DNA of 64,000 bases from Planctomycetota bacterium (GTDB lineage Bacteria > Planctomycetota > Planctomycetia > Pirellulales > UBA1268), in NCBI GenBank assembly GCA_003669585.1, contig QWOQ01000005.1, forward strand, positions 584,502-648,501, written 5' to 3'. This document shows, one piece after another, positions 19,384-42,329 of the stretch. The notes under the pieces were generated by a model. The model was not told where the DNA came from and searched no databases. It saw only the letters and a program-made list of their open reading frames with translations. The first letter of the stretch is position 1. Each line of letters opens with the position of its first letter. Both the position numbers and the translations under genes were made by a program.

Positions 19384-20145
19384 CTAAAACCAATACGGCA
19401 CTCCGCAGCGAACCATTTCAATTCCCGCGATCCCAAGAGATTCAAGCTCCTTGGCCACTTGATCGGAGTCTGACGGCTTTCGATGGACGACCATCCATCG
19501 CACGGGAGTTGTGATTTTTCTAGTCTCGATAGCAAATGTGCTCGGGCACAGATGGCCGCACACGAGAGCCAAGTCGATCAATTTCTCTGGGAAACTTGCT
19601 TCGAGAAACACTGCCTTGAGATTATTCGTCTTTGCGGCATGAGACCAGATTGCCTCAGTCGGTCCGGTATCGGATGGAAATACAACGGCCGAAGCCGCAT
19701 CCTCCACGATGAATCCAATTGAAGGCACACCGTGCGACACCGGCACCGGTGTGATCGTTACATTACAGCGACGAATCGGCTTGAATAGCTCGAGAGGCGT
19801 GACTCGAACCATCGGCTCATGAGTCAGCGTGGGATTGAAAAAATCAGGCCACACCCGGCCGTTAAAAATATCGTTGCGAAGAAATTGAAGTACGTCGGGC
19901 ATGGCCAGCACCTCAACGCAGTCCACACCGGGTTCAAAGCTGTTGGAAAGAACCAGAGGCAGAGTTGCAATGTGATCGATGTGCTCATGCGTAATAAATA
20001 TATGTTTGACCCGCTTTTGTCGCTCCAGATCAGCAAGCAGGCCCAGCGATCCGCAGTCGATCGCAATCTCATCGTTTATAAGATATGTCGTCAAATACTG
20101 AACGTCGCTGACTGGGACGCTCGATGGAAGAAGTTCTATTTTCAT
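19384..20145 (-). CDS. Metallo-beta-lactamase-fold hydrolase resembling class II cyclic-nucleotide phosphodiesterases
   Basis: 253 residues with no signal peptide. The metal site is visible as HEHIDHIATLP (about residues 53-63), followed by PVSHGVPSIGFIVED and FPSDTGPTE, the pattern of the class II cAMP phosphodiesterase group of the metallo-beta-lactamase fold. Such enzymes hydrolyse 3',5'-cyclic nucleotides. It follows the cyclic-nucleotide-binding MscS channel gene after 33 bases on the same strand, which supports a cyclic-nucleotide substrate. A generic MBL hydrolase is the alternative. Confidence 0.78.
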   Translation of the reverse strand: MKIELLPSSVPVSDVQYLTTYLINDEIAIDCGSLGLLADLERQKRVKHIFITHEHIDHIATLPLVLSNSFEPGVDCVEVLAMPDVLQFLRNDIFNGRVWPDFFNPTLTHEPMVRVTPLELFKPIRRCNVTITPVPVSHGVPSIGFIVEDAASAVVFPSDTGPTEAIWSHAAKTNNLKAVFLEASFPEKLIDLALVCGHLCPSTFAIETRKITTPVRWMVVHRKPSDSDQVAKELESLGIAGIEMVRCGVPYWF

Positions 20146-20178
20146 AATTCTTAGAAATGATTCTAGACGGGGGAGGTT

Positions 20179-21678
20179 CTAAATTGCAAAAAACTTTTTG
20201 ATTCGTTCAAAAAGATCGATCGAACTCGGAGCTTGTTTTTCAATTTGTGAAATGATCTCAAAACGAGCCACCTGTCTGCCGACGAGATACTCACTTGCTC
20301 GCTTAACCAAAAGTGGCTCGACAGTAAGAAGCTTTGACATTGCAGGCTTATCGATTCGCAGAATGCGAGTTTCAACCATAGCCGTGACGGTGGCGCTTCT
20401 CTGCGCTCCGGTCATCAGTGACATCTCTCCAAAAACATCTTTGGAAGAGAGTATTGCCAACCGGGTCGGCGCGGATCCCGAATCGCTCACCGTAACGTCA
20501 ACGTTGCCCGATTCAATGATGAACATGCTCGATCCGAGATCGCCTTGACGAATGATCTCTTCTCCGCTGGCAAATGTCTCTTGCACCGCGTCAGACGCCA
20601 GTTGCAGCATCTGGTCTTCGGAAAGCATTCCTAGCAGATCGACTTCCGAAAGAATTTCTTTTCGCTGCTTGAGTATCTCGTCGAACGAAGATGCAGCCTC
20701 CGTCGGGAGATGTGTGAGTCGGATGGCTTGTGTCGCCACTGGGATTTTGATTCCGTGCCGGGCCAAGGCATACCAAATGCGATCGCGTGCCATTCCGTCA
20801 ACACGGTCTCGCTTATCAAATTCAGTGGTAAACAATCGCACCCAGTATTCGATGCCGCGTTCTTTAAAATCGTTCGTGACCACTGAGGCCGCCGGGTGCT
20901 CCAGCACGCCGAAGCTACCGCGAATCGCTTCCAGCATGATCTGCTGAACTCGCTGCGGCGATTCTTCATAGGGTGCTACAACAAACAGAGAACGTCGCGA
21001 CCAGCGTTGTGGCTTCGTAAAGTTTCGAATCGACGCCTGTGCCAACTGCCCATTCGGAATGATCACTTCGGCTTCGTCGAGGGTGATCACTTTCGTTGCT
21101 CGCCAGTTGATCTCTGTAACTTTTCCAATGTGCGCCTGATTGGTGTCGTACTGAATCCAATCTCCCAGCTCAAATGGCTGCTCAGCATGAATCGCAAGAC
21201 CAGCAAATACGTTGCCCAGTGTATCTTTGAGTGCAAAGCCCATTACCGCAGTAAGTACCGCCGATCCGGTAAATAGTTCTGCTGGATCAGCACCGCTTTC
21301 CAAAAGCACAACAAAGAGTGCGAGAATCGTTCCAGACCACCTCAGTACATCAAAAAAGATCTTGGGCATCGGTCGGCTGACCTGCTCCCATATCGAAATA
21401 CAGAAAATGATCAGGAGCGACTGAACGATTGAGGTAATCAGAAAAAAGTGAATACCCAGACCCAGAAAACGATTCAAATCGATCGATTCTGGAAAAAGAC
21501 CCGCAGCTGCTATTGGCAGTGGCGCAAGCAACAAAAAAATTATTGGAACCTGTACCAAACGACGGCGTTTACCAAGTGGCAAGACAAACGCCACAGCGAT
21601 TGCAGCCAACGCTACGAGCAATTCGCGAGGCAAGTCTGTGCCGAATATTCCAATCACCGACTGAAGCCAATTCCACAT
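20179..21678 (-). CDS. MscS-type channel with C-terminal cyclic-nucleotide-binding domain
   Basis: 499 residues from the ATG at 21678, which has AGGTG at SD distance; a GTG at 21735 is possible. Four or five transmembrane helices (about 15-185) lead into the MscS pore helix and beta domain (GFALKDTLGNVFAGLAIHAEQPFELGD split over about 145-175, then VTEINWRATKV). The C-terminal about 130 residues are a cAMP-receptor-type domain: FASGEEIIRQGDLGSSMFII, IESGNVDVTV, phosphate-binding cassette FGEMSLMTGAQRSATV. This is the bacterial cyclic-nucleotide-gated (bCNG) architecture. The cassette Arg-Ser-Ala pattern is compatible with cNMP binding. It probably forms an operon with the phosphodiesterase-like gene. 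Confidence 0.93.
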   Translation of the reverse strand: MWNWLQSVIGIFGTDLPRELLVALAAIAVAFVLPLGKRRRLVQVPIIFLLLAPLPIAAAGLFPESIDLNRFLGLGIHFFLITSIVQSLLIIFCISIWEQVSRPMPKIFFDVLRWSGTILALFVVLLESGADPAELFTGSAVLTAVMGFALKDTLGNVFAGLAIHAEQPFELGDWIQYDTNQAHIGKVTEINWRATKVITLDEAEVIIPNGQLAQASIRNFTKPQRWSRRSLFVVAPYEESPQRVQQIMLEAIRGSFGVLEHPAASVVTNDFKERGIEYWVRLFTTEFDKRDRVDGMARDRIWYALARHGIKIPVATQAIRLTHLPTEAASSFDEILKQRKEILSEVDLLGMLSEDQMLQLASDAVQETFASGEEIIRQGDLGSSMFIIESGNVDVTVSDSGSAPTRLAILSSKDVFGEMSLMTGAQRSATVTAMVETRILRIDKPAMSKLLTVEPLLVKRASEYLVGRQVARFEIISQIEKQAPSSIDLFERIKKFFAI

Positions 21679-21735
21679 CAAATCACCTGTTGCAAAAAAC
21701 ATTCGGGAGTTCACAATTCTCACTTTTTCATCCAC

Positions 21736-26361: not shown

Positions 26362-26754
26362 GATCAACACTTTTTTTCGCGGCGCGACCAACTCAACGAG
26401 AGACTGGTACAGATGTTTTCACGCTGCGAGATCTCTGCTAATCGAGTGCCGCTCTCACTCAATGAGAATTTGTATTTTGCAAACGCCGTGCCAATCAAAT
26501 CGCAACTTTGTTCAGTGTTTGATCCTTTGGTGAATAAAAACCTTTTTTACGAACCGTTCTTCTACTTTTTTATTTTTTCTACAACAGTAAATGCATTTTG
26601 AAGTCGCCGATTCATTTGTCTCACTGCTCGACTGACAAGCAGGGACTGCCTTTTTTGTCAGCAGTCAGTTAAAAATAGTTTTCGCGTCTCTGATTGATCA
26701 TCGCAGTCCGTGTATCTTTACAATTTCTTTTTCACACGGTTTTTTGATGTTCTT
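26362..26754. other. Intergenic region, no gene seen
   Basis: About 390 bases between the small BON-like gene and the sensor kinase, AT-rich toward its right end. It includes the inverted repeat CTGACAA / TTGTCAG near 26633-26661. Promoters for both divergent genes should lie here; none is distinct. Confidence 0.4.
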
Positions 26755-27852
26755 ATGTCTCACTTTGAAACCGATACCTGCTCGCCACTGCCTCCCCTCG
26801 AACTTCTCTGGAAAAGTCTTACCGATAGCATCGAGTGTTCTATTGTCGTGATCGATCGCAGCTACAGAATTCAGTTCATCAACCGTTTCGAGGGGGGATG
26901 GGTGGCTGCGGACATGCTCGGCCGCAATGTGTTCGACTTTGTGCAGCCCTCTTCTGTGGAATACAGTCAAACGATGATTGAATCTGTTTTTCAAACGGGA
27001 CAGGCCTGTGCCTTTGACATAGAGAGCTTCGACGCTCCCAATCACCCTACTACGGTCTATTCTGTGCGAGCGGTTCCGATACAGATCAGCGGCGCCGTCG
27101 TCTCGGTCGTCGTCACATTGATCGACACACGTCTCGCTCAAGCGGCAGAAAGCCTACAGAGGGAGTCACAACAGAATCTGCAAAAACTTCTTACTCTGCA
27201 CGATCGCGAACGCCAGCTTATCTCGTATGAGATTCACGACGGACTGGCTCAATATCTCGCCGGTGCCGCAATGCAACTCGAGGCGTTTGACCATGCGTGT
27301 CGACCTCATTCCAAAAGTATTTTAACGGATTCTTTTCATTTCTTGGAGGAGGGACTCCGGCTCGTAGGGGCTTCCGTTGATGAGTCTCGCCGTTTGGTCA
27401 GCGGAATGCGTCCTTTGTCGCTTGACGAACTCGGAATTATTTCTGCAGTCGAAATTCTTGTTGACGAAGCGCGGATCGACATCCCACACGTTGAGTACTC
27501 ATGGTCAGAGGGGATTTTACGATTTTGTCCTGGCCTGGAAACCACCGTCTTTCGAATCGTTCAAGAATCGCTCACAAACATTCGCAAACACTCCGACGCG
27601 CACCGGGCAAGCGTGCGTCTTGAGCGACGTGGTGACAGTGACCTTGCGATCATCGTCACCGACGACGGTATTGGCTTCGATCTCACTGCCGTTGCGGCTA
27701 ATCACTTTGGGATCGAAGGCATTTGCCAGCGAGCCAAGATCTATGGCCGCGAAGCGCTCATCACCAGTTCGATCGGAAAAGGCAGCCGAGTTGAGGTCGT
27801 CTTGCCTTTTATCCCAGACACTCGCAATGAGCAGCAGTCCCAAATCATCTGA
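26755..27852 (+). CDS. PAS-domain NarX-type sensor histidine kinase
   Basis: 365 residues from the ATG at 26755; an in-frame GTG at 26710 is possible. A PAS domain (about 20-140; IVVIDRSYRIQFINR) is followed by a HisKA_3 dimerisation domain with H-box YEIHDGLAQYLAG and a GHKL ATPase domain with N-box QESLTNIRKHSDA, G1 DDGIGFD and a GxG-type loop (IGKGSRVEV). It autophosphorylates on His and normally pairs with a LuxR/NarL-type regulator, none of which is in the window. No membrane segments, so it is soluble. Confidence 0.9.
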   Translation: MSHFETDTCSPLPPLELLWKSLTDSIECSIVVIDRSYRIQFINRFEGGWVAADMLGRNVFDFVQPSSVEYSQTMIESVFQTGQACAFDIESFDAPNHPTTVYSVRAVPIQISGAVVSVVVTLIDTRLAQAAESLQRESQQNLQKLLTLHDRERQLISYEIHDGLAQYLAGAAMQLEAFDHACRPHSKSILTDSFHFLEEGLRLVGASVDESRRLVSGMRPLSLDELGIISAVEILVDEARIDIPHVEYSWSEGILRFCPGLETTVFRIVQESLTNIRKHSDAHRASVRLERRGDSDLAIIVTDDGIGFDLTAVAANHFGIEGICQRAKIYGREALITSSIGKGSRVEVVLPFIPDTRNEQQSQII

Positions 27853-28279: not shown

Positions 28280-29956
28280 TCAGGTTCTTCCCAGGCAGAC
28301 CAAACAGATGTCATCGCTGCGAATCTGTCCAGCAGTGTATCGCTCAACATCTTTGAGAATGCGTCGCCCTGTCTCCTCGGCCGAATCTGTCGGGGCTAAA
28401 CACATTTTCTCAAGCCTCTCCATGCCGTAGGGACGTTGATCCTGGTCCATCGCCTCGCTGATGCCGTCGGTATAGAGCACAACCACTGATCCAGCCGGCA
28501 ACGCAATGTCAATCGATTCGTACACCGCCTGAGAAACCACTCCCAGTGGGGTTCCCGCCGTGTCATCGCCATGGGTTTCGAGACGGCCATCGGGGGTTCG
28601 AACGTATGCCGGCATATGGCCAGCACTCACGAGCTTGGCTTTGTGTGCAATTGGATCAAGCACCAGAAAAATCGCCGTAGCAAACCGATCGTCCCAACCA
28701 CCTTTGCAAAAACTTTCATTGATGCGTGCAACAGCTGTAGAGAGATCTTCTTCTGAAGCGAGGCAATATCTGACATCCTTGGAAAGCGCCATCATCACAA
28801 GCGCCGCGGAGACGCCTTTTCCAGAAACATCCGCCAGCACAATCGCCAATCGCCCTCCCGACAGCGGAATATAATCGAAAAAATCTCCTCCGATCTCGCG
28901 TGCAGGCTCATAGAAATCGAACAACTGATACCCTGTCACGTCCGGTGGCTTGGACGGCAAGAGGCCTTGCTGCACCCGTTTCGCGAGATCGAGGTCTCGG
29001 TTCACCTGCTCTTGGCCTATTCTTTCTTCATAGGTTCTCGCCTGCTCGACCACACGAGAAGCCATGCCTGCAATTCCAGCGAGTACCTCCAGATCTTTTG
29101 CATCGAAACTATCACGAAGATCGAGCGTGTCGACGTGTATGACTCCGGTGACCACATCGTCTGATCGCACCAGCGGCACACACAGCAGCGAGCGAATCCG
29201 ACAATCGATCATGCTTTCGTTATTGGCTCCAAACTGAGAATCACTTGCGGCATCGGCCGAAAGAATGCCCCGTTTGGTCAAAACCACCTGCTGCAATAAT
29301 GAGACGCTCAACCTGATTGGACCGGGCTCAGGAACGGAACGAAGTTTTTTTGATCGAAGAATGAGTCGCTTTGATTTCATGTCACGAAGGAGCACGAAAC
29401 CTCGATCTGCTTTTGGGAACATTTCAAAAATGCCGTCGAGTAGTTTTGGGAGCACTTCTTCTAATGAAACACTCCCTCCGAGTGCCTTGTTGAGATTTAT
29501 GACAGCTCGAAGTTTGGCCTCAGTATTGAGAGCCATTGCCGCTTCACTTGCGACCGCCGGTACATCGACTTGCGACATAATTCGAGAACCATCGATTGCC
29601 GAGTCGATAAAATCATCTGGATTCGATGTTTCTGAACCAATGACATAGGCTTCTTCTGACGGTGTCGTTCCGGTGGTAAAGATCAGTGACTGCTCGCAAA
29701 TCTGGACTTCGTCCCCATCTTCGAGTCGCTTTTTTGCATCCACTCGAACACCATTGAGTGTCGTTCCGTTGCGACTGCTGAGGTCTTCGAGAAAATAGGT
29801 GTCGGTCTCAAGCACAATCGTTGCGTGCTGACGACTCACTGCCGATGTATCGAGCACGATGTCACAGGCCGGATGTCGACCGATGACAACCTTTTCTTTG
29901 GTGAGTGATACGCGTTCACCGGCGCGAGGTCCGGATCGAATTTGGAGAAAAGCCAC
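28280..29956 (-). CDS. FHA-GAF-PP2C (SpoIIE/RsbU-type) serine phosphatase
   Basis: 558 residues from a GTG. Domain order: FHA (about 1-95; phosphopeptide-binding VIGRHPACDIVLD, VSRQHA, SSRNGT), a linker, GAF (about 150-305; GFVLLRDMKSKRL), a short coiled segment (RVQQGLLPSKPPD) and a PP2C phosphatase (about 335-555) with metal-binding GGDFFDY, VLADVSGKGVSAAL and YTDGISEAMD. It is soluble. Such proteins dephosphorylate anti-anti-sigma factors or FHA-partner proteins of Ser/Thr kinase circuits. No STAS or kinase partner is adjacent. Confidence 0.94.
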   Translation of the reverse strand: MAFLQIRSGPRAGERVSLTKEKVVIGRHPACDIVLDTSAVSRQHATIVLETDTYFLEDLSSRNGTTLNGVRVDAKKRLEDGDEVQICEQSLIFTTGTTPSEEAYVIGSETSNPDDFIDSAIDGSRIMSQVDVPAVASEAAMALNTEAKLRAVINLNKALGGSVSLEEVLPKLLDGIFEMFPKADRGFVLLRDMKSKRLILRSKKLRSVPEPGPIRLSVSLLQQVVLTKRGILSADAASDSQFGANNESMIDCRIRSLLCVPLVRSDDVVTGVIHVDTLDLRDSFDAKDLEVLAGIAGMASRVVEQARTYEERIGQEQVNRDLDLAKRVQQGLLPSKPPDVTGYQLFDFYEPAREIGGDFFDYIPLSGGRLAIVLADVSGKGVSAALVMMALSKDVRYCLASEEDLSTAVARINESFCKGGWDDRFATAIFLVLDPIAHKAKLVSAGHMPAYVRTPDGRLETHGDDTAGTPLGVVSQAVYESIDIALPAGSVVVLYTDGISEAMDQDQRPYGMERLEKMCLAPTDSAEETGRRILKDVERYTAGQIRSDDICLVCLGRT

Positions 29957-36177: not shown

Positions 36178-36250
36178 AGGTGTCAAAACCGTTTCTTGTG
36201 CATGTGCTTTATATTGAAAAACGACATTAGAAACGATCCCTGACACCTTT
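36176..36250. repeat. REP-like palindrome between DUF1501 and adenylate cyclase genes
   Basis: Ten-base inverted repeat AAAGGTGTCA (36176-36185) / TGACACCTTT (36241-36250), with a second inner pair CGTTTC / GAAACG. The arms read AAAGGTGTCAAAACCGTTTC and, from the other side, AAAGGTGTCAGGGATCGTTTC-like, i.e. two copies of one palindrome unit. The 5' arm overlaps the DUF1501 stop codon. A related arm sits after the cyclase (37404-37418). Could serve as a terminator. Confidence 0.5.
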
Positions 36251-36272
36251 GTTTTGCTCTCTACAGACACTC

Positions 36273-37385
36273 ATGACAGAAAACAACGCAAACCAAGCCC
36301 AGCGACATAGGGTACTGTTGATCGATGATCAGAAGATCATCGGTGAAGCAGTTCGTCGCATGCTCGCTTCCGAAAGCGACATTCTCTTCTCATTTTGCTC
36401 CAGTGCCGACGAGGCCGTTACGTTCGCAATTGAATTCAAGCCAACGGTAATTCTCCAGGATCTCGTTATGCCAGGATTAAGTGGCCTCGAGCTCGCACGA
36501 AGGTATAGAGCAACACCATCATTATCACAGGTCCCGGTGATCGTTTTGTCGTCTCAGGAAGACGCCACTGTCAAGGCAGAACTCTTTCAAGCCGGAGCCA
36601 ACGATTACCTCGTCAAGCTTCCTGATCGAATTGAACTCATCGCTCGGATTCGGGTGCACTCGGAAGCCTATCAACGACTGCTCGAGAGAGATTTTGCCTT
36701 CTCACAGCTCGAAGCATCCTTGCTCCAGCTTGATCGCGAAAAAGCGAAGTCGGAGGGGTTGCTGCTCAATATTTTGCCGCACTCGATTGCCGAAAAACTG
36801 AAAAATAATCAAGTGACGATTGCTCAGAGCTTTGAATCAGTCACTGTGATGTTTGCTGATTTAAGTGGATTCACTGAGTATTCCCAACATATTCATCCAC
36901 AATCACTCCTCACACTCTTGGATGAAATATTTTCGGCGTTTGACCATCTCGCCTCCGATCACTCCGTGGAAAAGATCAAAACCATAGGTGATGCTTACAT
37001 GGCGGCTTCAGGAGTTCCTGAGATAAGCGTCAATCATGCCGAGGCAATGGCCGATATGACGCTTGAAATGATCGATGTTTTTGAACGCATTCGCGAGAAA
37101 CATAATTTTTCGCTGAGAGTCCGGATTGGCATGCACTCGGGTTCGGTCGTTGCTGGAGTGATCGGCAAACATAAATTCTCATATGACCTGTGGGGCGATA
37201 CTGTCAACATTGCCAGTCGTATGGAGTCGCACGGAGAGGCTTCACGAATTCACGTAAGTCAAACGACCCGCGATTTACTTCAATCATCATTTCGATTCGA
37301 GGAACGCGGTGAGATCACCATTAAAGGAAAGGGGGTCATGCGGACCTACTTTCTTCTGGGCCGCATCTCAAGCACAGCTCCCTAG
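36273..37385 (+). CDS. Response regulator with class III adenylate cyclase output domain
   Basis: 370 residues from the ATG at 36273. Receiver domain (about 13-130; VLLIDDQKIIG, phosphoacceptor Asp in LQDLVMPG, switch KL in YLVKLPD), a coiled-coil linker (about 145-180), then a class III cyclase (about 185-365). Catalytic signs: VTVMFADLSGFTEYS (metal Asp), KIKTIGDAYMAASG with the adenine-specifying Lys, and YDLWGDTVNIASRM with the matching Asp, so ATP rather than GTP is expected. Product would be cAMP, gated by phosphorylation. No cognate kinase adjacent. Confidence 0.94.
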   Translation: MTENNANQAQRHRVLLIDDQKIIGEAVRRMLASESDILFSFCSSADEAVTFAIEFKPTVILQDLVMPGLSGLELARRYRATPSLSQVPVIVLSSQEDATVKAELFQAGANDYLVKLPDRIELIARIRVHSEAYQRLLERDFAFSQLEASLLQLDREKAKSEGLLLNILPHSIAEKLKNNQVTIAQSFESVTVMFADLSGFTEYSQHIHPQSLLTLLDEIFSAFDHLASDHSVEKIKTIGDAYMAASGVPEISVNHAEAMADMTLEMIDVFERIREKHNFSLRVRIGMHSGSVVAGVIGKHKFSYDLWGDTVNIASRMESHGEASRIHVSQTTRDLLQSSFRFEERGEITIKGKGVMRTYFLLGRISSTAP

Positions 37386-37582: not shown

Positions 37583-38674
37583 TCAGAGCCATTGTCTCAG
37601 CCAGCCGCGTCGCCAGAAAAAAATACTCATGCTGAGTGTTACAAGAACCATGATCGCAATCGCTACGATCGAGCCGTATGAATATCCCAACAGTGGCATA
37701 TTCCATGCACTGGATCGGTCAAAGTTCATGCCAAAATAACCTGTAATAAACGTCAACGGCATAAAGATCGTAGCAACAACCGCAAGCACCTTCATGATGT
37801 CATTCATGCGACTGTTAATACTTGCCAGATAAATGTCGCGAAGGTCGCTCCCAATCTCCCGATACGATTCCATCAAGTCGAGCAACTCCATCGTGTGATC
37901 GTAACTATCGCGGAGATGGGCGCGCGCATGATCTCCGACAAATACAGACGATTCTCGTGACAAACAGTGGAGCAAATCTCGCGTTGGCCAAAGTGCTCTC
38001 CTCAGCGTCATGAGATCGTTACGCACGTCATGAATGTGAGAAAGCAACTTGCGATCGGGATTGTTGATCGCATTTTCTTCGAGATCTTCGAGTCGTTCGC
38101 CAAACTGTTCCAGTACTGGGAAATATCCGTCGACTGCCGCATCGAGGAGCAGTGAACAAAGCATATCGGCACCGAAGCGCTCAGCCTGCGGGCGATGCAT
38201 TCGAAAGCGTTCTCTTACCACACGAAATCCGTCGGCGGTAAAACGTTCGCGAAAGGTAATAACGACTCGTGATCCAAAGATAATTCCGACAGGGTCGGTC
38301 ACAATCGTTCCTTCATCGATGCGCACCATCCGCACTGTAATAATCGCCTGATTTTCAAAAAAATCTACTTTGGGTCGCTCATCCGGTGTCACCGCATCTT
38401 CCAGAGCGAGGTGCGGTATCTCGAAAAGCTTACCAATCGCTCTGATTGTCGGCACGTCGTCAAGGCCTTCAACATCGACCCACAGCAGGGGCCACTGCGC
38501 GATGTCGACCGAGAGTTCTTTTATATTCGTAACAATCCGCTCATGGCACGCATCGACACTGCAGGCGGTTACTCGCACCGTTGATCGAACACTCGATTCG
38601 ACGACTTCGACTGCTTGTGAAAAATTCACATCCTTTCGTCGAGGCTTTTTTTTACGCTGCGACACGATTTCCAA
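37583..38674 (-). CDS. corA: CorA-type Mg2+/Co2+ transporter
   Basis: 363 residues. Large cytoplasmic alpha/beta domain (about 1-290) and two C-terminal transmembrane helices (about 300-325 and 335-355). The signature YFGMNF (GMN pore motif) lies at the end of the first helix. It forms a pentameric Mg2+ channel in the inner membrane. The N-terminus is unusually basic (RKKKPRRK). Its start codon overlaps the end of the MscK-like gene by 23 bases, so expression is probably coupled. Confidence 0.95.
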   Translation of the reverse strand: MEIVSQRKKKPRRKDVNFSQAVEVVESSVRSTVRVTACSVDACHERIVTNIKELSVDIAQWPLLWVDVEGLDDVPTIRAIGKLFEIPHLALEDAVTPDERPKVDFFENQAIITVRMVRIDEGTIVTDPVGIIFGSRVVITFRERFTADGFRVVRERFRMHRPQAERFGADMLCSLLLDAAVDGYFPVLEQFGERLEDLEENAINNPDRKLLSHIHDVRNDLMTLRRALWPTRDLLHCLSRESSVFVGDHARAHLRDSYDHTMELLDLMESYREIGSDLRDIYLASINSRMNDIMKVLAVVATIFMPLTFITGYFGMNFDRSSAWNMPLLGYSYGSIVAIAIMVLVTLSMSIFFWRRGWLRQWL

Positions 38675-41600
38675 AGCCTCCGCGAGTCGACTCGATCACT
38701 TCGCTAGAAGACAATGTGGATGTCAATGAGGCATCGATGGAACGGATATGAACGTCTGTCTGTGGAAATGCGACCTCGATTTTATGCTCGCGAAACTTTT
38801 GGTCGATTGCCATGTTGAGATGGTGCGAAATCGTATGAAAATCTTCCATTGAAGCAACGTAACACCACAATTCAAAGTCGAGCGTGCTATCGCCAAATCG
38901 ATTAAATAATGCCTGCGGGGCGGGAGTATTGAGCACCTTAGACTGTTTTTGAGCAATTTCCAGCAAGAGCGACTGCACTTTGGAAGCATCGGTTCCGTAC
39001 GCCACACCAACTCGCACAATCACACGCAGCACTCGATTCGAAAGCGTCCAGTTGGAAACTTTGTCGGTGATAAAGGAACGATTGGGAATCACTGATTCGC
39101 GACAATCCCAATCCGTGATTGTTGTGGCTCGCATCTTGATCTTTGTGACGATCCCCGTCACGCCCCCGACGGTGACAGTGTCTCCCGGACGAACCGGACG
39201 CTCCAAGAGCATGATGATGCCCGAAGCAAAATTGGCAAAAATTTCTTGAAGACCAAATCCAAGTCCAAATGTCATTGCGGCAGCGAGCCACTGCACTCGA
39301 TCCCATCCGATACCGAGAAGCATCGCTGTAACACAGATACCAGTTGCATAGGTGCTGTATCGAGCAATCGATGAAAATGCTTGCTGTGCTCCGGTGTTGC
39401 TTCCACGAACGCACTGCGAAGACGCTTCGACGATACTTGCTACATCGCGAGAGAGTATCCATGTCAATGCGAGTGCCGCACCGGCCATCATCATCCGCGA
39501 CACGCTTATCGAAATATTTGTCTTGGGATCAACCCAGAGAACCATTCCGCACAGCTCGTCGAATCCCGGAATCATCGTTTGCCAAGTTGCCAGAACACAC
39601 CCCGCAGAGACGAACATGAGGAGCGATCCAGCGAATCGACGAACACCCACGAATGAATCTTCGCATGCCATACTTGGGTCGGAGATATCACCTGTGTGAT
39701 CGGCGAACAATTCCAGGCAATTCAATTCGTTTTTCGTCGTTTCTACTGTGTCACAGAGGTCAACCCGATTGATTGTCTTGCGAGTATTCGTTTGTGGTGG
39801 AAACACAGACACCACACATCCAAACAGAAATCCTGCAAGCGTGAGTATGACTGCCGTGGAATGCAATCTCGTCGCAAATCCCAACGATGTGTCGTGAAAG
39901 CCTGTAACGCTCGCCACCACAAGGCCGACGGGAATCGCCACGAGTGCTGCGTGCAGAAGGCGCCGCATCCACACACCACGAAGACTTGGTTTTTTAAGAG
40001 AGTGCCCGATCGCAGAAAAGACTCTTGAAATACTCGTTGCCACAATCACCAGCAACAGAACAAAACTTGCTTGACTAAGACTGTGCAGATGCTGAGTAGA
40101 ACTTGAATTTTTCAGAAATCCCAGAAGCACTACCATCGGAAATGCGGCAGCAGCCCACTTCGTCGCCACTCTCAAAACTCGATGTGTGCGAATCGGATCC
40201 CAACCGAGCCATGATTCAAGGAGTCCTCCCGTTCGGCAACTCGCACGCGCCACTTCCACCGGCAGGAATATCCATGCAGACACCAGCAGCGACTCGCCCA
40301 AGCAGAGCGTCATTTCCTGCACACCGTTGGTCAGTCGCAAACCCATTGCCGCCAACACCGAAGGAATCACAAGAGCAATCGCACATGTTTCAAGAATTCC
40401 GGGAAGACTCAACCACCCTGCGTGTCGACCAATCGAAACTCCGATCAATATCACTGCCGTGGAAATACACAACCACTCGAGCAGCCCAGGAAACCTTGCC
40501 TGATGAATCGATCCAAGCAATGAGTGATAGTGAGTCGGTTCAAACATTGAAAACAATCCGGTTGCCGCCTCAATCCAACGAGAAGGGCCAAAAAGGTCCG
40601 TACTGCGCATCCACACAACCCTTCGATCGATATCGTCCTGACATTGTGTCACCAGAGTCTGCAATTCCTTCGCATCGATTTCAGCTTCAACAATTGTTCG
40701 GTAGCAACTTTCGCGATCCGAATGAAGACTTTCTGCGATACTCACACACAATGGCGAATGACCTTTGATTTGAACAAAAGACGACGGCACATCTCCCAAG
40801 TTTGAAAATAAAAGATCATCGGCAAGAAGTTCTGACTCCATCCTGGTGCGCATCTCTTCGATTCGCATCAAACGCTGCAAAATTTCATGGCGTCCGGGAA
40901 GTTCGCCGCGCTGTCGCCGCAAATACAGCCCAACCTTTGAGGATTCAATCGATGCGTCAGTGAAGTTTGATACTCGTCTGGTTACCATTCTCGCTCTTGA
41001 GAGCGAAAGTTGAATCATTTCCAGCGTCGCATGAGCATCTGTGAGGCGTGCGATCACGTCGAATCGATGTTTTACAACTCCTTGTGCAGCGTTATCGTTT
41101 GAAGTTTTCGCAGCCGATTCCTGTTCAATCGCTTCTCGTTGGCGTAAAAGGCATTCCACTTGCTGAAGATTCTGTACCGTCGCAATTCCTTCTGTAATCC
41201 GCTGGCGGGTCAGCCTTCGTTTGAGATCGAGAAGCTTTGTAGAATTGCCTTCAAGCCCAAGGAGTTTTTCATGAAGGAGATCCAGGCGAGCCTGAAGCTC
41301 AGCACTGGAAGCGGCATCGTAGAGAGCACACGCCTGCTCGGTCTGTTCAGACGAGCCATGCACTGCAGTATCACTGTCGCGGGCATCAATTTTTTGTTGC
41401 AGTTTTTCGAGTTTCATTGAAGTGCGAGAGACTTCAACTGCAATACTCTGTCGCCGATTTCGCCAATGCCCCGCTTCTGATTCAAGACGAGCCAGTTCGA
41501 GCCGTTCACTTGCAAGATGCTTCTCTGCCGTAACAAGCATTGCTACGGCTTGATCGATAGACAGATCAGCACTCGAAGAATTCACAACGGCTGGCCGATC

Positions 41601-41954
41601 GAGTTGGCTCTGCAACGATTGAATCTGCCGCGGAGCCATTTCTCGATCCAAAATCATCTGTTGGATGGACGAACGGTACTCTTGCTCTTTTTCAAGCGAT
41701 ACAATCGCATTGGAATAGAAGGCGACTATTGTTTCTGAATTCACTGAATCGTTCGTTGTTTCGGCTTTAAATTGTTCGAATGTCGTTCGAACTGTTTCTA
41801 AAGAAATCTGATCATCAACCAGATGCACCAACGATTTCTGACTCTTGGTCGCATTGATGGGATTTTCCAATTCAGCGGCAATACACACCGTTGCGACGAG
41901 GGCAATGAAGCCAGCCACAGAACCACAGATCACGCAACGAATGATGGATTGCAT
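38652..41954 (-). CDS. MscK-like large mechanosensitive channel
   Basis: 1100 residues from the ATG at 41954; a GTG at 41993 is possible. Signal peptide (VICGSVAGFIALVATVCIAA), a periplasmic coiled-coil domain to about residue 470, then about eight to eleven transmembrane helices and a C-terminal MscS domain: GLGFGLQEIFANFASGI (pore helix), RPVRPGDTVTVGGVTG, VIPNRSFITDKVSNW. This architecture matches MscK/MscM, larger relatives of MscS that release solutes on membrane tension. It overlaps corA downstream. Confidence 0.92.
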   Translation of the reverse strand: MQSIIRCVICGSVAGFIALVATVCIAAELENPINATKSQKSLVHLVDDQISLETVRTTFEQFKAETTNDSVNSETIVAFYSNAIVSLEKEQEYRSSIQQMILDREMAPRQIQSLQSQLDRPAVVNSSSADLSIDQAVAMLVTAEKHLASERLELARLESEAGHWRNRRQSIAVEVSRTSMKLEKLQQKIDARDSDTAVHGSSEQTEQACALYDAASSAELQARLDLLHEKLLGLEGNSTKLLDLKRRLTRQRITEGIATVQNLQQVECLLRQREAIEQESAAKTSNDNAAQGVVKHRFDVIARLTDAHATLEMIQLSLSRARMVTRRVSNFTDASIESSKVGLYLRRQRGELPGRHEILQRLMRIEEMRTRMESELLADDLLFSNLGDVPSSFVQIKGHSPLCVSIAESLHSDRESCYRTIVEAEIDAKELQTLVTQCQDDIDRRVVWMRSTDLFGPSRWIEAATGLFSMFEPTHYHSLLGSIHQARFPGLLEWLCISTAVILIGVSIGRHAGWLSLPGILETCAIALVIPSVLAAMGLRLTNGVQEMTLCLGESLLVSAWIFLPVEVARASCRTGGLLESWLGWDPIRTHRVLRVATKWAAAAFPMVVLLGFLKNSSSTQHLHSLSQASFVLLLVIVATSISRVFSAIGHSLKKPSLRGVWMRRLLHAALVAIPVGLVVASVTGFHDTSLGFATRLHSTAVILTLAGFLFGCVVSVFPPQTNTRKTINRVDLCDTVETTKNELNCLELFADHTGDISDPSMACEDSFVGVRRFAGSLLMFVSAGCVLATWQTMIPGFDELCGMVLWVDPKTNISISVSRMMMAGAALALTWILSRDVASIVEASSQCVRGSNTGAQQAFSSIARYSTYATGICVTAMLLGIGWDRVQWLAAAMTFGLGFGLQEIFANFASGIIMLLERPVRPGDTVTVGGVTGIVTKIKMRATTITDWDCRESVIPNRSFITDKVSNWTLSNRVLRVIVRVGVAYGTDASKVQSLLLEIAQKQSKVLNTPAPQALFNRFGDSTLDFELWCYVASMEDFHTISHHLNMAIDQKFREHKIEVAFPQTDVHIRSIDASLTSTLSSSEVIESTRGGFGNRVAA

Positions 41955-42329
41955 ACCGCATAAACCACAAAAAGTTTGTCTGAAAGTCCCCACACCCCAC
42001 CGACGAAGATTTATCTCACGAACCCCTCAATTCTCATCGAGGCGTTTCATCCGCCAGCGAAATGCTTCCGTAAGATGCGGGAGACGGTAGCTATGAACCG
42101 GGAAAAGGTCGACCCCGTTTAACACCTCAAAACAGCGTATTGAAAACAGCTTTTGAAGCGATGGGAGGTTGTACGAGTCGTTGACATCGAGGCTTTCCCA
42201 TCGATACCGTTACGCTTTCATTGCAGAGAGTCCGGTGGGGATGCTTTTGGTTTCAAATGACAAAAGATATTCGAAAACAGTTTTTTGATGCTTGATGTGC
42301 CGATTTCTGAACGCTGAGAAGACCTACCG
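41955..42329. other. Divergent intergenic region upstream of the ATP synthase operon
   Basis: About 375 bases between the MscK-like gene and atpZ. It contains the promoter-like pair at 42181, an 8-bp inverted repeat CGATGGGA (42159-42166)/TCCCATCG (42196-42203) that brackets the -35, and three copies of AAAACAG. No coding sequence seen. Confidence 0.5.
42181..42210 (+). promoter_or_regulatory. Candidate promoter of the atp operon
   Basis: A consensus TTGACA (42181-42186) with a weak -10 (TACCGT at 42205-42210, 18-base spacing). It is bracketed by the 8-bp inverted repeat that ends at 42203, so a repressor or a hairpin could control it. Distance to atpZ is about 120 bases. Confidence 0.35.

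Follow-up and report, generated by a model that had tools for sequence, protein, structure and literature searches.

The window, a 64,000-nucleotide stretch of a contig from a Planctomycetota bacterium, carries on its minus strand a gene for an MscS-type channel with a cyclic-nucleotide-binding domain (CNBD; 21678-20179) followed by a gene for a metallo-beta-lactamase-fold enzyme resembling the class II phosphodiesterases (PDE; 20145-19384). Only 33 bp (20146-20178) separate the two. An initial annotation had proposed this arrangement, and on checking, the positions and spacing proved exact. The gap is too short for a terminator plus a promoter, which suggests that the channel and the PDE are probably co-transcribed.

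The channel gene starts at an ATG at 21678, with an in-frame GTG at 21735, and encodes a single polypeptide of 499 residues in which the CNBD lies C-terminal to the MscS pore and beta domain. Three Pfam models scored above their cut-offs: PF00924 at 65.7 bits (MscS beta domain, residues 152-222, 21013-21225), PF21082 at 32.1 bits and PF00027 at 70.2 bits (CNBD, residues 367-451, 20326-20580). Sequence matches of the CNBD in the PDB were PKG and PKA regulatory domains and SthK. The phosphate-binding cassette FGEMSLMTGAQRSATV (20386-20433) is intact and holds the Glu and Arg expected in domains that bind cyclic mononucleotides (cNMP), here E418 and R427, in agreement with the earlier description of the domain as intact-looking. 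Among orthologues, E418 is invariant in 23 of 23 family channels and R427 is kept in 21, with Cys in the remaining two; orthologous channels of the family are 52-59% identical. The AlphaFold model of the channel monomer was poor (pLDDT 71, pTM 0.36), and the channel was left out of the fold search for that reason.

Channels of the MscS type with a CNBD have been known since 2010. The bCNG channels, reportedly the subject of work by Caldwell and co-workers in 2010 and Malcolm and co-workers in 2012 (both cited in PMC4560390), are said to be MscS-superfamily channels with a C-terminal CNBD. Like them, the window channel has an MscS core and, after it, a CNBD whose binding cassette is intact. It belongs with them architecturally and presumably binds a cNMP as its predicted reader. 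The titles of the bCNG papers, on which this comparison rests, mention no neighbouring PDE or cyclase.

The PDE gene encodes 253 residues, and the best Pfam match of the product is the class II PDE model PF02112 (52.2 bits, cut-off 23.7), which outscores PF12706. Alignment with homologues places a metal-binding motif, HEHIDH, at residues 53-58 (19972-19989), and the predicted ligands H53, H55, D57, H58, H138, D159, H198 and H221 are invariant across 28 homologues. The AlphaFold model had a pLDDT of 90.8. Its top two distinct matches in the PDB were yeast PDE1 and YhfI of B. subtilis, followed by RNase Z and, lower, Apyc1; yeast PDE1 was the best match in the profile search as well. These results bear out the assignment of the enzyme to the class II PDE group in the initial annotation. 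Typical class II PDEs carry the motif HxHLDH and atypical ones [T/S]HxHxDH (PMC9293780). The window enzyme shares with the typical group (S. cerevisiae PDE1, Vibrio CpdP; PF02112) a PF02112 score over cut-off, an HxHxDH motif and PDE1 as best structural match; however, it is only ~17% identical to S. cerevisiae PDE1, is shorter, and its HEHIDH departs from the strict HxHLDH, the family consensus being HEHLDH. With the atypical enzymes (Rv1339, YhfI, C. glutamicum CpdA; PMC9293780) it shares the fold, YhfI as second-best distinct structural match, and the [T/S]HxHxDH motif, which its THEHIDH satisfies, but it reaches 25.2 bits against a cut-off of 400 on NF041851, the NCBI model for cyclic nucleotide-degrading phosphodiesterase, and scores higher with PF02112 than with PF12706. 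A position between the typical and atypical groups fits these features, and the protein is a predicted cNMP phosphodiesterase, the putative eraser of the pair.

The initial annotation had left it to be checked whether the pair recurs in other genomes. Related contigs bear titles such as Planctomycetaceae, Pirellulales and Planctomycetia, some of which are plain mislabellings, and we refer to the bacterium's own family as f1. Most f1 genomes contain the PDE, and most contain the channel. The channel lies upstream of the PDE on the same strand in 45 of 53 usable family loci (the window counted in, two truncated contigs left out), which rules out an arrangement unique to the source genome. The gap between them is -4 to 92 bp in 43 of those 45 loci; in the two exceptions the channel is broken (genome G028) or the gap is filled by a receiver-cyclase gene (G021). 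Adjacency within the family is weak evidence alone because the pair sits inside a syntenic block of ~20 kb (nadC, channel, PDE, typA, with uvrB and other housekeeping genes in the flanks), and we rejected it as sufficient proof, since it may equal inherited order. The spacing between nadC and the channel varies from ~0.5 to 5.7 kb across the family while that between channel and PDE is tightly constrained, which counts against pure inertia of gene order. Three genomes (G020, G198 and G146) lack the channel and retain the PDE, and in G028 (L047:9919-10822, minus strand) the channel is in pieces and the PDE intact. The two genes are thus separable, and the PDE is not solely the channel's servant.

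The persistence of the PDE without the channel, the family-wide conservation of the block and its flanks, and the presence of further CNBD proteins in the genome would also be expected if the pair were a case of bystander synteny, with the PDE a general housekeeping cNMP phosphodiesterase at a junction of a frozen block and the channel perhaps responding to another ligand. We consider this rather unlikely. Other junctions of the block take insertions, as between nadC and the channel, but the channel-PDE junction does so only in G021, where the insert is a cyclase, and an independent locus combining an MscS-CNBD channel, a cyclase and a PDE exists in another family, as described below.

The linkage of the PDE to cyclases and CNBDs across the class is stronger evidence than adjacency within the family. 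By profile search, 127 of the 398 Planctomycetia genomes contain the PDE family; an alignment served as query in the contig search for relatives. Of 55 genera outside the family, each represented by one locus, 12 had a cyclase domain at most 3 kb from the PDE (~0.2 expected) and 3 had a CNBD gene in that range, one of them weak (~0.3 expected), the expectations being based on ~0.6 cyclase and ~1 CNBD per Mb. These counts are not independent, because related genera share loci; the set is less biased than a 28-genome enrichment test, yet phylogenetically dependent. The 28 genomes are related and were partly chosen after the loci had been seen, and that test was not relied on alone. Many members of the class have no cyclase or CNBD neighbour of the PDE, as in most Isosphaeraceae-type loci. 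With the CNBD association treated as a label on the PDE tree, 7 changes are needed, at least 4 of them forced by well-supported branches, suggesting that several independent PDE-CNBD associations are likely.

The CNBD neighbours of the PDE are of unrelated kinds: type II NADH dehydrogenase (NDH-2), an Fe-S protein, glutaminase, an ABC transporter and the MscS channel. An NDH-2-CNBD fusion lies near the PDE at L093, and throughout L090-L093 and L095 (genus g40) this fusion is divergent from the PDE, a locus that suggests cNMP control of respiration. Fe-S-CNBD proteins are encoded near the PDE at L094 and L180. At L178 (3184-7763) the gene for a glutaminase-CNBD fusion is followed on the same strand by those for an FHA-cyclase and the PDE, and a cNMP-controlled glutaminase is possible; in G315 an ABC ATPase-CNBD, the sole CNBD of that genome, adjoins the PDE. 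Genus g189, which belongs to another family, has an MscS-CNBD channel and a PDE with an FHA-cyclase between them in four genomes, the channel being 29% identical to that of the window over its whole length. In a fifth g189 genome an ABC exporter-CNBD replaces the channel beside the cyclase and PDE. This swap of CNBD partner can be seen at L285:650-2866 (minus strand) and L244:2361-3830 (plus strand).

The FHA-cyclases beside the PDE (loci L178, L185, L187, L242, L244, L247, L249, L254, L256, L271 and L278) keep the metal and transition-state residues, but their two base-specificity positions hold Asp and Gly, so a substrate other than ATP is possible. Near the PDE of G221 lies a CYTH gene that may encode a triphosphatase, and it was left out of the cyclase counts. 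We give about even chances to the view that these loci represent a toolkit of the Planctomycetia, in which the class II-like PDE is the fixed eraser, used with cyclases (some of the FHA type, without the adenylyl residues and maybe acting on another nucleotide), and one CNBD effector replaces another from lineage to lineage.

A candidate maker of the messenger, overlooked in the initial annotation, lies in the same window. The gene at 36249-37385 (plus strand) encodes 378 residues comprising a receiver domain (PF00072, 71 bits) fused to a class III cyclase domain (PF00211, 227.7 bits), and it is the only PF00211 match in the genome, ~15 kb from the channel-PDE pair. The cyclase classes searched in the source genome were PF00211 and CYTH, with one match each. 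The catalytic residues of the receiver-cyclase are intact (VEKIKTIGDAYM and SYDLWGDTVNIASRM), including two metal-binding Asp residues, Asn, Arg, and a Lys and Asp that we take to be of adenylyl type on what is established about class III cyclases. Of 59 genomes searched, 31 have an orthologue, almost all of them members of the same family, and in about ten it lies on the same contig 8-16 kb from the pair. In G021 a receiver-cyclase sits exactly between channel and PDE, the three genes in a row on one strand. The PDE adjoins a receiver-cyclase or its cyclase domain in G018, G227, G273, G176 and L149, being divergent from the receiver-cyclase in G227 and G273 and convergent with the cyclase in G176. 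The source genome has a single PF02112 match, the window PDE, and three CNBD proteins, namely the window channel, an 883-residue Fe-S protein and a 190-residue protein; together with the single PF00211 match this leaves few alternative partners.

Several other genes of the window deserve mention. The conserved block includes a PAS histidine kinase (26710-27852, plus strand) and an FHA-GAF-SpoIIE phosphatase (28280-29956, minus strand), either of which is a possible input to the receiver-cyclase. An MscK-like channel of 1113 residues with MscS_porin, MscS_TM and MS_channel domains is encoded at 38652-41993 (minus strand), with a CorA-like gene beside it at 37583-38674.

Collectively, domain content, intact motifs, conserved adjacency and the class-wide linkage of the PDE to cyclases and CNBDs make it probable that channel and PDE act as reader and eraser in a cAMP-type circuit whose maker is the receiver-cyclase. 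The enzymatic activities, ligand identity, gating, co-transcription and kinase input in this scheme are what we infer from that evidence. A histidine kinase would control the receiver-cyclase as in a two-component system. The cyclase product, a cyclic mononucleotide and most probably cAMP, would bind the cytoplasmic C-terminal CNBD and shift the open probability of the channel, through which ions or small solutes would cross the inner membrane. Hydrolysis of the 3',5'-cyclic phosphate by the class II-like PDE would then reset the channel, and probable co-transcription would keep the amounts of channel and PDE in proportion. The Cys that replaces the binding Arg in two of the 23 orthologous channels counts against the scheme, as do the genomes that keep the PDE with the channel lost or decayed and the many class members whose PDE has no cyclase or CNBD neighbour. 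The initial annotation had described the pair as a self-contained sensing module. Its pairing of a cNMP reader with an eraser is upheld by the domains, motifs, family conservation and cyclase and CNBD linkage, but the pair comes without a maker, the likely one lying ~15 kb away in the window and between the two genes in G021.

The same annotation had cast the module as a sensor of osmotic or membrane tension, a view in which membrane tension gates the MscS portion and the CNBD has no more than a tuning role. That the channel has an MscS fold and belongs to the superfamily agrees with this, but the MscK-type channel of the window (38652-41993) could serve osmotic release, and we regard the tension reading as unsupported and unlikely. 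It is quite improbable that the enzyme is another metallo-beta-lactamase-fold phosphodiesterase, such as RNase Z or a PhnP-like protein. These share its fold and score in both sequence and structure searches, but the enzyme falls far under the cut-offs of the NCBIfam equivalogs for RNase Z (TIGR02651, 34 bits against 293) and PhnP. An RNase Z identity was rejected on those scores and on a better RNase Z candidate elsewhere in the genome; the PF02112 score, the agreement of both searches on yeast PDE1, and the linkage to cyclases and CNBDs argue likewise for a cNMP phosphodiesterase.

A Pycsar-like antiphage module, with the channel as membrane effector, the cyclase as infection sensor and the PDE as safety valve, is highly improbable and membership was rejected, for although PADLOC Pycsar effector and cyclase models match the CNBD and cyclase domains and Apyc1-type class II PDEs counter Pycsar (PMC9117128), those hits are to single domains only, the locus has been conserved by vertical descent amid housekeeping genes rather than in a variable island, and there is no adjacent pyrimidine cyclase, the cyclase 15 kb away being receiver-fused with adenylyl-type residues. 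The logic of a cyclase, a CNBD effector and a class II PDE is common to both systems, but Apyc1 is a phage counter-defence nuclease against Pycsar (PMC9117128), whereas the gene of the window PDE is chromosomal, conserved and adjacent to that of the effector.

The channel type and the enzyme class are known, and their linkage would be the new part. The initial annotation knew of no description of such a pair, and our check of the open literature, the original bCNG papers aside, likewise turned up no description of a bCNG channel paired with a PDE, nor any of the linkage of this PDE family in planctomycetes; because those papers were outside the search, the novelty is provisional. Nor was an account of a circuit around an MscS-type CNBD channel found in the literature searched, and little on planctomycete cyclic-nucleotide signalling appeared in the papers searched. 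The conserved reader-eraser pair and the plausible maker nearby provide a defined three-gene set. The recurrence of the PDE family beside CNBDs fused to unrelated enzymes offers a means of finding cases where cAMP directly controls channels, respiration, transport and metabolism in the phylum. In this aquatic planctomycete family, the gene for a channel predicted to be switched by a cNMP almost always adjoins that for an enzyme predicted to destroy the messenger, and the two have the look of a reader-eraser pair in a small signalling circuit.
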